IMG/VR virus record: IMGVR_UViG_3300030116_000538
Coordinates: 1-21,455 of that record
Length of the DNA stretch: 21,455 bases
DNA from: a virus
Direction: 5' to 3' (one strand)
In this document: piece by piece, positions 1,961-19,532 of the stretch
How positions within the stretch are numbered: the stretch's first letter is position 1
How the letters are laid out: every line of letters begins with the position of its first letter
The notes under the pieces: model-generated
The model's input: only the letters and a program-made list of their open reading frames with translations
Database searches by the model: none
What the model was told of the DNA's origin: nothing
Position numbers and translations under genes: made by a program

Positions 1961-2251
1961 TTAAAGTTTAGGAAGAGATTTAGTAGGTATAGATGGCCCT
2001 GTTACGTCAGGTAAACCTTTATCTAATACCTTCGGCATCAGCCCAGATACGTTACCCATTATCTCTTTCATTACCTGGGATTTAAAATTCTCACTCGTTA
2101 CATACTTGTAACCGAAGTACGCTCCACCACTCATGGAGGCTACCATGATAAAAGAAACAATACTTAAAACATTAGCGATCTTTTGAAACATGATTAAATT
2201 TGCAATAATTAAAGCACTTTCATTTACAAGTGTGCTTGTGTTACTACTCAT
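1961..2251 (-). CDS. Small single-pass membrane protein, cyanophage-like
   Basis: I chose the ATG at 2251 (96 residues). An upstream GTG at 2278 is in frame, but the sequence AAAGGTG lies 11 bases before 2251 and fits a ribosome binding site. A further in-frame ATG at 2191, starting MFQKIANVLSIVSFIMVASM, would give 76 residues and matches the usual size of related phage proteins, so it remains possible. The hydrophobic stretch after MFQKIANV is followed by YFGYKYVTSENFKSQVMKEI, a small amphipathic region and a proline-rich end (GLPDVTGPSIPTKSLPKL). A similar layout, membrane helix then 'KAQVMEEV ... GLPD' and a proline-rich tail, is found from memory in small cyanophage proteins. The function is unknown. 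Confidence 0.75.
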   Translation of the reverse strand: MSSNTSTLVNESALIIANLIMFQKIANVLSIVSFIMVASMSGGAYFGYKYVTSENFKSQVMKEIMGNVSGLMPKVLDKGLPDVTGPSIPTKSLPKL

Positions 2252-2313
2252 TCTAGCTCTGTCACCTTTATACGTCACTATGAGTTTAATGACAAGACAA
2301 ATGACTACCGAAA

Positions 2314-2442
2314 CTAAGTAGCAAGCTTTCTACGATAAAACCTTGTTTTGCAAGCATTAGAACAATACTTTCTTCTCTGTTCTGTTGTAGAAAATACTTT
2401 ACCGCAGCATTTACACTGCTTTTCTATTATTTCGCAGAAGAC
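2314..2442 (-). CDS. Zinc-finger extension read by putative -1 frameshift
   Basis: This minus-strand frame encodes 42 residues from the slip site to a TAG at 2316-2314. It holds QCKCCGKVF ... RRKYCSNACKTRFYRRK, a CxxC then CxxxC zinc finger of the type with 'CG+.F' and '+.YCS..C+.R', followed by a basic, possibly nucleic-acid-binding tail. Between the upstream in-frame stop and the first cysteine there is no ATG, GTG or TTG, so it has no normal start. It is in the -1 frame relative to the 2427-2597 gene, entered at A AAA AAG (2448-2442). Frameshifting would give a 94-residue fusion. Alternatives are a non-standard ATA start, a broken gene, or a one-base error in the seven-A run. Confidence 0.6.
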   Translation of the reverse strand, partial: VFCEIIEKQCKCCGKVFSTTEQRRKYCSNACKTRFYRRKLAT

Positions 2443-2597
2443 TTTTTTTCGGCTGTTTCCTCTTGTCTATCTACTAAAATTGCATTTATAGCAATAACTC
2501 TGTTTTCAATATTTTTTTGAACTTGCGTAGCTTCTTGATAATTTTTTTCTAATGTTTTTAGTTCTTCTTGCAGTTCTTCTGTTGTTTTGCGAGCCAT
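2427..2597 (-). CDS. 56-residue coiled-coil protein, candidate frameshift donor
   Basis: The gene runs from ATG at 2597 to TAA at 2429-2427. The protein (MARKTTEELQEELKTLEKNY through EKKSSAK) is almost wholly charged helix with heptad-like leucine/isoleucine spacing (L9, L13, L16, then I30, V34, I37, I40), so a short coiled coil is expected. From memory, similarly small 'EEL..EL..LE.NYQEA..VQ' proteins occur in marine cyanophages, function unknown. Near its end GAA AAA AAG contains the -1 slippery heptamer A AAA AAG, with GAGG (2462-2459) ten bases upstream. I see no clear Shine-Dalgarno sequence before the ATG. Confidence 0.75.
   Translation of the reverse strand: MARKTTEELQEELKTLEKNYQEATQVQKNIENRVIAINAILVDRQEETAEKKSSAK
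2442..2464 (-). promoter_or_regulatory. Putative -1 frameshift signal: slippery A AAA AAG plus upstream SD-like site
   Basis: On the minus strand, AAGAGGA (2464-2458) precedes the heptamer A AAA AAG (2448-2442), with ten bases between GAGG and the heptamer. This is the arrangement known from the dnaX -1 frameshift signal. No strong downstream stem is obvious; short CTGC/GCAG pairings are possible. Shifting here reads directly into the zinc-finger frame that has no start of its own. Confidence 0.5.
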
Positions 2598-2641: not shown

Positions 2642-3076
2642 TTAGCTAGGTTCGGTAGGCCAAGTAATATTAAATGGATCTGACTGTGTTGGTACATCCC
2701 TTAAAGCTTGTCTATAATTCTTCCAAGCATCAGATAAAGTTAGATCGCTGCTGGCTCTCCAATCAGTTTCTTTTAATAAATTATCTCTTTTTATTCTTAC
2801 TAATACCCATTCAGCATTAGTAAGATTAGTTTGTTCTTCTGCTGTTGTGGACTCTACCTTTACAGTGTAAGCTTTACCATTTTCAACATAAGCATCTACT
2901 GTAGTTAACTTTTGTGAAGGAGTTGTGTAACTGAGAGTTTCTACAAGTTCCACTACATTATTTGCAGCTAAAAAATCTGCACTTGGGCCAGCAGCAGAAA
3001 AACAGGTAGATGGAAATAGTTGTTGTAGTGTGCCAGTATTTAATACAACAGCACGATCAATAATTGCGTAGTTCAT
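2642..3076 (-). CDS. Tail fibre assembly chaperone, Phage_tail_APC type (copy 1)
   Basis: A 144-residue protein. The C-terminal half carries the hallmark of the Phage_tail_APC family: RIKRDNLLKETDWRAS, then DAWKNYRQALRDVPTQ and the ending NITWPTEPS. The N-terminal half (YAIIDRAVVLNTGTLQQLFP, then AYVENGKAYTVKV) matches the usual accessory domain of such proteins in cyanophages. These proteins are thought to help fold or attach tail fibres and normally sit directly after a fibre gene, as here after the LamG protein (13-base gap). The last about 50 residues are nearly the same as those of the 4444-4725 gene, so the two are paralogues. Confidence 0.85.
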   Translation of the reverse strand: MNYAIIDRAVVLNTGTLQQLFPSTCFSAAGPSADFLAANNVVELVETLSYTTPSQKLTTVDAYVENGKAYTVKVESTTAEEQTNLTNAEWVLVRIKRDNLLKETDWRASSDLTLSDAWKNYRQALRDVPTQSDPFNITWPTEPS

Positions 3077-17279: not shown

Positions 17280-18961
17280 TATCTAAGTAAACCTCCAGGT
17301 CTTCTTTGTTCTATTAATTCTGATTGTATCGCTACAGAAATCAAACGCCCAAGTTCTCGACCCTGTTGTTCATCTCCTTCAACAGAAGAACCAGAAGCAT
17401 CTACATTTACTACGATATTTGTTGTACCACCCATTGCATGATTGGGTGTAATCGTTCCAGATACACCAGGGCTAAACATTTCTGGGCCACGTTCTCCAAC
17501 AAGATAAGACTTGCCTCCTTTCACTGGCCCTCCTTCTGCTCTAGTACCTCCAAAGAATCTTGAGCCAGGGAAAAGTCCTCCTAGTAAAGCATTTACACCA
17601 AAAGATATAAGAGATCTTTGAATTTGACCAAATACACTTCGAGCCACATCTCCAAGAGTTTTAGTACCATTTATTGCACCCTCAATTGCACTGACAAGAC
17701 CCGTTTCAATACTATTGCCAATATCTTTATATAAATCATTTAATTTTTTTACTTTTTCTTGCTCTTGATCTAATTTGTATAATTTTTCTAATTTCTTTCT
17801 TATTTCATCATCTTCTAAACCAAGAGTATTGTTTTTAATTTCCTGTATTCTCATTTCTATTTCAAATTCTCTTTCTGAAAGTGTATTTTTTAAAGTAGCT
17901 TTTTCTATTTCTTTATCTAGATCAGCCATGCGATCTTTAGCAAGTTGAGCTTGTGGTGTAAGTTTTTTGCCAGATTTACCTTGAGAAATAGGACCAGATG
18001 TTACTTGAAATCTTTCTAACATTTGTTCCATCATTGAAACTGTTAATTGTTTTCTGCTTTTTGGCCCACCTTTTAATTTGTCTACTTCTGAATCAAAAAA
18101 TTCTTTTTGTGATCCTCTTAATCCACTTCTAAATTCTCTAAACTGACTTCTAATAGAACTATCACGAAGGTTTTTATTTATAACAGATAATAATTTACTT
18201 AAAGGACCAGCAATAAACGCATCAAATCTAGTTTTTAATATTCCCATCAACCTACCAAATTCACTTGATACTTCATTTAATTTGTTCAATTTAGCTACCC
18301 CTTCAGCTCCTATAATTTTTTGATATTCTTCATTAAGTAAATTATTAAGTTCTTGAGCTTTACCTTGGCGTTCTAATTGACGAGCAAGTTCTTCAGTTTC
18401 ATTCGATGTAAATAGCGATCTTTCTCTTGCAAGCTCTAACTTTCCGCTTAAAGTGTTTATTTTGTTTGCTGTTTCAATAGAAGCTTGTCCAATTTTTGTC
18501 AACTCAGCGACTACTGCTGTAGCTGCAATAGAACCAGCAAAACCACCACCAGGAGTAGCTGCTTCACCTAACGCACCACCAATCAATCCTGGAATTGCTT
18601 GCCCAAATCCTCCTCCAAATAACAAAGGAAAACCACCACCAATAGCAGCACTTTGAATAATTCTTGATCTTCTTGATTTCTGTGGAAACCCTCCAAAACC
18701 GCCACTTTCTACTTCGTTTAATTTTTCTAATTCTTTCTTTGCTTGTTTAGCTTGTTTTTTTATTTTTTTTAATTTCCTATCTGTTTTATCAAACTTTTTA
18801 TTTATTTTATCTATTGATTGTGGAATAGTTTTTGCTGATTGCTTTGTAATTTTTACTAATTCTTTTACATTCTTATTTATTTGATTTACAGCTTTAGTAA
18901 GCTTTGTTATATCTCTTTGACCTTTAACTTTCAAAGCAATATCAACACTATAATCTGCCAC
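17279..18961 (-). CDS. H: Tape measure protein, lambda gpH-like
   Basis: A 560-residue protein starting at GTG 18961-18959 (MADYSVDIALKVKGQRDITK). Residues about 20-85 form a long charged coiled coil, about 100-150 a Gly/Ala-rich hydrophobic stretch (GGGFPLLFGGGFGQAIPGLI), and about 340-405 more coiled coil. The C-terminus matches the lambda tape-measure C-terminal domain: GLVSAIEGAINGTKTLGDVA, QIQRSLISFGVNALLGGLFP, then RAEGGPVKGGKSYLVGERGP and NIVVNVDASGS. The protein sets tail length and is ejected with the DNA. It is short compared with lambda H, which predicts a shorter tail. It follows the G/T region by 30 bases. Confidence 0.92.
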   Translation of the reverse strand: MADYSVDIALKVKGQRDITKLTKAVNQINKNVKELVKITKQSAKTIPQSIDKINKKFDKTDRKLKKIKKQAKQAKKELEKLNEVESGGFGGFPQKSRRSRIIQSAAIGGGFPLLFGGGFGQAIPGLIGGALGEAATPGGGFAGSIAATAVVAELTKIGQASIETANKINTLSGKLELARERSLFTSNETEELARQLERQGKAQELNNLLNEEYQKIIGAEGVAKLNKLNEVSSEFGRLMGILKTRFDAFIAGPLSKLLSVINKNLRDSSIRSQFREFRSGLRGSQKEFFDSEVDKLKGGPKSRKQLTVSMMEQMLERFQVTSGPISQGKSGKKLTPQAQLAKDRMADLDKEIEKATLKNTLSEREFEIEMRIQEIKNNTLGLEDDEIRKKLEKLYKLDQEQEKVKKLNDLYKDIGNSIETGLVSAIEGAINGTKTLGDVARSVFGQIQRSLISFGVNALLGGLFPGSRFFGGTRAEGGPVKGGKSYLVGERGPEMFSPGVSGTITPNHAMGGTTNIVVNVDASGSSVEGDEQQGRELGRLISVAIQSELIEQRRPGGLLR

Positions 18962-18991
18962 TTACTTAGAAAATAAAAGATTTCTTCTATA

Positions 18992-19183
18992 TTACCTCTT
19001 TCTGCCTCTTATAGCACTATTTCTTTGTGCTTGTTCTTCTTGTTTTTTATATTCTTCATTTTCTAATTCAAAATAAGCAGCCCATCCTATCATTTCTTCT
19101 ATTGTTAAAGTTTCACATAACTCAAGAACAGTTTTTTTTAATTCTCTAGCTAAAGAATATAAAAATTTAAATTGATTATTAGC
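18992..19183 (-). CDS. T: Tail assembly chaperone T, frameshift extension of G
   Basis: This start-less frame encodes 63 residues to a TAA at 18994-18992: NNQFKFLYSLARELKKTVLE, CETLTIEEMIGWAAYFELEN and EEYKKQEEQAQRNSAIRGRK. The part 'LTIEE..GW.AYFEL' is the typical mark of the T domain in lambda-type tails, which recruits tail tube subunits during assembly. There is no ATG, GTG or TTG before its first conserved residues, and a TGA at 19189-19187 closes the frame upstream. It can therefore be reached only by a shift between 19187 and the G stop (19181-19179). The shift is +1 or -2, not the usual -1. Confidence 0.85.
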   Translation of the reverse strand, partial: ANNQFKFLYSLARELKKTVLELCETLTIEEMIGWAAYFELENEEYKKQEEQAQRNSAIRGRKR

Positions 19184-19532
19184 TTTTCAATTCGGCTTTA
19201 GCCTCTTCAACTCCTCTGGTTTGTCCAGCTTCAAGCATAGCTAACTGTATTTCTTGTAATACATTTGCTTCTACTTCTCTTCTTAATGAAGCTTTATCTC
19301 CATCTTGAAAAATTCTCACTCCATCTTTATCTAATGCTTTTTCAATCATTAAATTTAAAGCAAATTCGTTTGGATCTTCAGATGTAGATTTTTTTTGTAT
19401 TGATTCTCTTTCTGCAATAGTTAATGGATGCCAATATACAGTAAGAATAATCTTATTATTTTTTCTTACATCATGTTGATATAGCTGGCTTACACCAAAA
19501 CTATTCTTCAAAAGTTCAATTGCTCTAGTCAT
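19179..19532 (-). CDS. G: Tail assembly chaperone G, lambda gpG-like
   Basis: A 117-residue protein: MTRAIELLKNSFGVSQLYQH, KIILTVYWHPLTIAERESIQ, then EDPNEFALNLMIEKALDKDG and REVEANVLQEIQLAML. The phrase 'VYW.PLT..E...I', a domain with 'LMI.KALD.DG' and the place directly before the tape measure gene define the G chaperone of siphovirus tails. G coats the tape measure protein during assembly, and a small share of ribosomes extend it to G-T. No strong ribosome binding site is seen before the ATG at 19532. Confidence 0.88.
   Translation of the reverse strand: MTRAIELLKNSFGVSQLYQHDVRKNNKIILTVYWHPLTIAERESIQKKSTSEDPNEFALNLMIEKALDKDGVRIFQDGDKASLRREVEANVLQEIQLAMLEAGQTRGVEEAKAELKS
19182..19190 (-). 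promoter_or_regulatory. G/T frameshift site TTG AAA AGC, non-(-1) type
   Basis: On the minus strand G reads TTG AAA AGC TAA. The T frame, open only after the TGA at 19189-19187, continues as AAA GCT AAT AAT. The window for the shift is thus only AAA AGC. A +1 slip of tRNA-Lys within AAAA (19187-19184) or a -2 slip at the same place both give the T frame; a -1 slip does not. Confidence 0.7.

Follow-up and report, generated by a model that had tools for sequence, protein, structure and literature searches.

A minus-strand gene of a marine phage very probably uses programmed −1 ribosomal frameshifting to yield two proteins, a 56-residue coiled coil and a 94-residue form tipped with a zinc finger. 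From the conservation of the sequence among relatives, we put the probability of this reading at approximately 90%. The window, that is, the whole stretch of DNA analyzed, comprises 21,455 nucleotides of the IMG/VR virus record IMGVR_UViG_3300030116_000538. The original prediction, which gave no strand, had described a 56-residue open reading frame (ORF) with A AAA AAG in frame near its end and GAGG ten bases upstream, followed in the −1 frame by a zinc finger without ATG, GTG, or TTG. All of these elements were confirmed on the minus strand (Table 1).

Table 1. Features of the frameshift gene and of its surroundings, in window coordinates
Feature	Position	Strand	Remarks
Zero-frame ORF, coiled-coil protein	2597..2427	-	ATG start, 56 aa; MARKTTEELQEELKTLEKNYQEATQVQKNIENRVIAINAILVDRQEETAEKKSSAK; phrog_20003; predicted long helix
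GAGG, internal Shine-Dalgarno-like element	2462..2459	-	exactly 10 nt 5′ of the heptamer; 49/50 distinct sequences
Slippery heptamer A_AAA_AAG	2448..2442	-	codons 50-52 (GAA AAA AAG) of the zero frame; 50/50 distinct sequences
Tandem zero-frame stop TAA TAG	2424..2429	-	12 nt 3′ of the heptamer
−1 frame extension	2314..2442	-	42 codons plus stop; VFCEIIEKQCKCCGKVFSTTEQRRKYCSNACKTRFYRRKLAT; TAG stop at 2316..2314
Predicted treble-clef zinc finger, basic C-terminal helix	2317..2415	-	C62..C83 of the fusion; AlphaFold pLDDT 91
Weak 5-bp hairpin	2404..2419	-	22 nt 3′ of the heptamer; some covariation; within coding sequence
Tail fibre assembly-like protein	2642..3076	-	upstream neighbor
phrog_568 (labeled "plasmid stability")	1961..2191	-	small membrane-like protein, downstream neighbor
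Unannotated antisense ORF	2190..2321	+	43 aa, hydrophobic; MIKFAIIKALSFTSVLVLLLILALSPLYVTMSLMTRQMTTETK; conserved family
Tail assembly chaperone candidate	18961-19532	-	117 aa, phrog_20784/phrog_344 (19179-19532), then open frame KANNQFKFLYSLARELKKTVLELCETLTIEEMIGWAAYFELENEEYKK without obvious start

Translation of the window joins the zero frame and the −1 frame into a 94-aa fusion, with zinc finger ligands arranged as C62-x2-C65-x13-C79-x3-C83 (Cx2C-x13-Cx3C) and no ATG, GTG, or TTG codon in the −1 frame. In Escherichia coli, A_AAA_AAG is reportedly much more shift-prone than A_AAA_AAC or A_AAA_AAA, and Shine-Dalgarno (SD)-like elements located 9 to 14 nt upstream stimulate −1 shifting (PMC5009743), a range that includes the spacing of GAGG in the window. 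The AT-rich window contains three in-frame copies of A_AAA_AAG, compared with ∼0.9 expected from codon use. The heptamer alone is therefore within chance, and the case rests on its conservation across relatives.

A scan of IMG/VR retrieved 78 loci, of which L002 to L070 are relatives of the frameshift gene and L071 to L079 contain the zinc finger only. IMG/VR yielded about 67 relatives of the gene, and 64 copies have the full arrangement; these represent 50 distinct sequences, window included, that share ancestry, so that counts among them are not independent. The expected conservation of the heptamer and of both frames is borne out in these homologues: A_AAA_AAG starts at exactly nucleotide 149 of the gene in every distinct sequence, GAGG is missing from a single one, and the finger always lies in the −1 frame relative to the coiled coil (50/50). 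Parsimony on the tree of 50 sequences gives no synonymous change in the AAA AAG codons of Lys51 and Lys52, compared with 8, 6, 17, 11, and 11 synonymous changes at five other invariant lysines, and the background frequency at which these phages write Lys-Lys pairs as AAA AAG is 18% (P = 0.18). The preceding codon 50 differs among sequences (GAA, GCA, GTA, or ACA, encoding Glu, Ala, Val, or Thr) while its final A is always kept. Glu46, which provides the GAG of GAGG, is written GAG in 49 of the 50 sequences, compared with 21% GAG among the Glu codons of these phages, and changed once on the same tree, compared with 5 and 14 times for two other conserved glutamates; L054 lacks GAGG. The zero-frame TAA located 12 nt past the heptamer is invariant in the main-type sequences. 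The short product is 56 aa long, except in L065 to L069, five variants with a longer overlap, where it reaches 61 aa.

Runs of adenines call for two other explanations to be weighed. According to the first, the ORF was originally a single fused one that an indel in the A-run broke in two, which would make the arrangement a pseudogene or a sequencing artifact. Homopolymers are indeed error-prone, and one relative, L003 (1771-1998), presents a single-frame version of the gene. This copy is otherwise like L028 (1894-2174), and it owes its single 76-aa ORF not to the A-run but to a 53-nt internal deletion in the coiled coil that puts the finger in the zero frame; the deletion may be a natural variant, or it may have arisen when the contig was assembled across a short repeat. 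L003 is also the only member of the gene family with one of the contrary patterns that the original prediction named for homologues, namely, a finger in its own gene with a start or one uninterrupted frame. About 65 contigs, drawn from many metagenomes, share the two-frame arrangement, with A-runs of six, seven, or eight, a constant frame relation, and conserved zero-frame stops. The comparative data thus refute the split-ORF reading and leave it a negligible probability, and the indel error considered in the original prediction is ruled out by the many independent contigs, including those with six or eight A's, that keep the frame relation. In another relative, L023 (about 2590-2767), the start region of the coiled-coil ORF is damaged, and the heptamer and the finger are as usual.

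According to the second explanation, an extra A is inserted in the run by RNA polymerase, whether of the phage or of the host, and the altered mRNA gives rise to the fusion by conventional translation. Poly-A runs (An, n > 7) can cause transcriptional slippage (PMC3711429); the window has a seven-A run, and L070 has eight A's, with A_AAA_AAA replacing A_AAA_AAG and the frame relation unchanged. No run among the relatives exceeds eight, however, and the run is no longer than six A's in 6 of the 50 distinct sequences, where GCA, GTA, or ACA precedes AAA AAG. That these copies keep A_AAA_AAG intact with a constant frame relation argues against both transcriptional slippage and an indel or sequencing error. 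Slippage by the polymerase also needs neither the terminal G nor GAGG at a fixed spacing, yet both are conserved, which makes this explanation improbable.

The way into the −1 frame is narrowly defined. A −1-frame stop directly abuts the heptamer in 11 distinct sequences, and all 50 are free of ATG, GTG, TTG, and CTG over the stretch that leads from the last −1 stop to the first zinc ligand, so that the −1 frame can be entered only within or just after the heptamer. These data bear on the idea that the finger is translated separately, by reinitiation or internal initiation at an ATA coupled to termination at TAA-TAG. Two ATA codons overlap the zero-frame stop, one of them invariant in 50/50 sequences, and the distant finger relatives L071, L073, and L078 are small stand-alone ORFs with their own ATG. 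The invariance of this ATA nevertheless follows from its overlap with the zero-frame TAA. ATA codons start translation very poorly, better start codons are absent throughout, and the constraint on synonymous sites in AAA AAG and GAG, which lie upstream of ATA, would be left unexplained. Separate initiation is consequently very improbable, even more so than slippage by the polymerase.

Beyond the overlap, pairwise differences in the −1 ORF amount to 4279/4308/13364 at codon positions 1/2/3, a bias that indicates purifying selection on the −1-encoded protein. The zero-frame ORF is also conserved, so both frames are under purifying selection, with the zero frame evolving faster than the −1 ORF. 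The signal might still be real and its output mainly regulatory, or the long form a minor by-product of a functional 56-aa protein, as the coiled coil carried on its own by isolated Prochlorococcus phage relatives could suggest. This is unlikely, since in the clade studied here conservation is stronger in the finger than in the coiled coil, and the finger shows a strong codon-position bias, which points to selection on the long form itself. The invariant heptamer, GAGG, the constant frame relation, purifying selection in both frames, and the lack of a −1 start all support programmed −1 frameshifting, as originally proposed.

The 92 nt located 3′ of the heptamer fold little better than shuffled sequence (z-score of −1). 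Neither the fold z-score nor covariation revealed a convincing stem-loop or pseudoknot downstream of the heptamer, and an Rfam scan of the window gave no matches. The 5-bp hairpin in Table 1 is too weak and too distant to be claimed as a stimulator. The layout had been likened to that of dnaX, and this comparison stands for the heptamer and the upstream SD element but is doubtful for a 3′ stem-loop. E. coli dnaX (tau/gamma) has A_AAA_AAG, an upstream SD-like stimulator, and the −1 direction in common with the gene described here (PMC5009743; PMC3711429). In dnaX, however, a 3′ hairpin serves as a second stimulator and frameshifting generates the shorter product, whereas here no strong 3′ structure is evident, frameshifting generates the longer product, and the gene is unrelated.

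The 56-aa product matches the phrog_20003 profile over residues 1 to 53 (E value of 4e-12), and AlphaFold predicts a single long helix spanning residues 6 to 55 (pLDDT of 92), fitting a coiled coil. The extension is predicted to form a treble-clef zinc finger, composed of a beta-hairpin and a helix (AlphaFold, pLDDT of 91), with C62, C65, C79, and C83 as putative Zn ligands that are invariant in 50/50 distinct sequences. Related fingers occur at the C terminus of HNH-like proteins (L072 and L074 to L076). The treble clefs of phage HNH endonucleases (phrog_1271 and phrog_15471) and YacG share with the extension the motif CxxCGKxF..KYCSNACK..RR and the predicted fold; unlike these, the finger described here is joined to a coiled coil by a frameshift and has no nuclease domain. 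The gyrase inhibitor YacG was the best fold match in the PDB, but this match was not significant (TM of 0.62, E value of 0.43), and the finger was accordingly not assigned to YacG. A PDB sequence search with the finger profile was uninformative, as nearly all of its matches were to C2H2 knuckles.

The Prochlorococcus phages MED4-117 (CPWG_00053) and P-HS2 (P-HS2_00005) encode a 59-aa homologue of the coiled coil in a syntenic position, before phrog_568. This member of phrog_20003 in Prochlorococcus siphophages has neither heptamer nor finger, and the same is true of L100 and of ten IMG/VR relatives of the MED4-117 type (L109 to L118); the finger-less IMG/VR relatives were sought with two single coiled-coil sequences as queries. 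Heptamer and finger are thus either both present or both absent, as would be expected if the role of the heptamer is to express the finger. In a tblastn search of the named phage collection, nothing covered the whole 94-aa fusion, and GTDB genomes yielded distant finger-like stretches only, with no coiled-coil fusion and no copy in a cyanobacterial host. Among named isolates, the closest matches to the 1169-aa tail tip protein at >90% coverage come from MED4-117, MED4-184, and P-HS2 (37 to 38% identity), which suggests that the host of these marine phages is likely a picocyanobacterium. Virus AG-345-A17 was not used to assign a host, since the sort on plate AG-345 was extracellular (PMC6122165).

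The surroundings of the gene are themselves conserved. The downstream neighbor phrog_568 is syntenic in 60 of the 68 loci with room downstream, and in most loci the frameshift gene is followed by a cassette of phrog_568, phrog_605, and phrog_570 (608 to 2191 on the minus strand of the window). Some relatives have no phrog_605 match or have a divergent phrog_570 at about 31% identity, which suggests exchange. The antisense ORF occupies the whole space from the −1 stop to phrog_568; its ATG overlaps the phrog_568 ATG on the opposite strand (CATG), and its 3′ end overlaps the finger stop. Nearly all loci have it, with a length of 43, 36, or 35 aa, as do most of the MED4-117-type relatives examined, and no sequence in the codon bias analysis interrupts it. 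Differences of 9279/3258/12453, with codon position 2 the most conserved, support coding, and the ORF therefore appears to encode a genuine, so far unannotated small membrane protein.

Known phage frameshifts mostly concern tail chaperones and capsid or tail proteins. Membership of the gene in the tail assembly chaperone G/GT group was rejected, as it has no chaperone profile match and is located after tail fibre genes. The window has a separate tail assembly chaperone candidate, the region of which probably holds a G/GT-type recoding site near TTG AAA AGC TAA TAA, apparently +1 or −2. The gpG/gpGT pair of lambda is nonetheless the closest functional analogy, since in lambda and in other tail assembly chaperones, a tailed phage likewise makes a short product together with a frameshift-extended minority that bears a new C-terminal domain (PMC5009743). 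Gene, fold, and position differ, however: the gene described here sits beyond the tail fibre genes, a long way from the tape measure, and its extension is a zinc finger. In the IS3 family, frameshifting joins an upstream, generally DNA-binding product (OrfA) to a second domain in OrfAB (PMC5009743), whereas here there is no transposase and the DNA-binding-like part is what the shift adds.

By programmed −1 frameshifting in this late-region gene, most ribosomes would read to the TAA and produce the helical 56-aa protein. At A_AAA_AAG, the lysyl-tRNAs in the P and A sites would re-pair one base back, aided by base pairing between the 3′ end of 16S rRNA and the GAGG located 10 nt upstream, and the shifted ribosomes would add the 42-aa treble-clef zinc finger with its basic tail. 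The frameshift ratio may then set the number of finger-bearing subunits in a coiled-coil oligomer, such that the few subunits with a finger would anchor a mostly bare scaffold to a nucleic acid or a host protein. We infer the slippage itself, its ratio, the oligomerization, and the finger ligand, and by analogy with gpG/gpGT in lambda tail assembly, a ratio-setting and tethering function can be put forward only tentatively.

The mechanism is already known from −1 frameshifting of the dnaX and IS3 types, whereas the gene and its use appear new as far as our searches show, and our searches of the open-access literature yielded no cyanophage or zinc finger frameshift gene. It is conceivable, at less than even odds, that frameshifting serves a nonmorphogenetic purpose here, fixing the proportion of bare and finger-tipped subunits in a mixed coiled-coil assembly directed at a nucleic acid or host target; one clade of marine siphophages, probably picocyanobacterial, would have acquired it through a mobile finger appended in the −1 frame. 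A standard ORF call shows the 56-aa coiled coil only, so that the zinc finger is missed by annotation. The gene presents a compact and strongly conserved frameshift in an uncharacterized family of ocean phages, and its natural variants (six, seven, or eight A's, one SD loss, one frame-joined copy, and a finger-less sister group) form a comparative system for the gain and loss of a frameshift-encoded domain.
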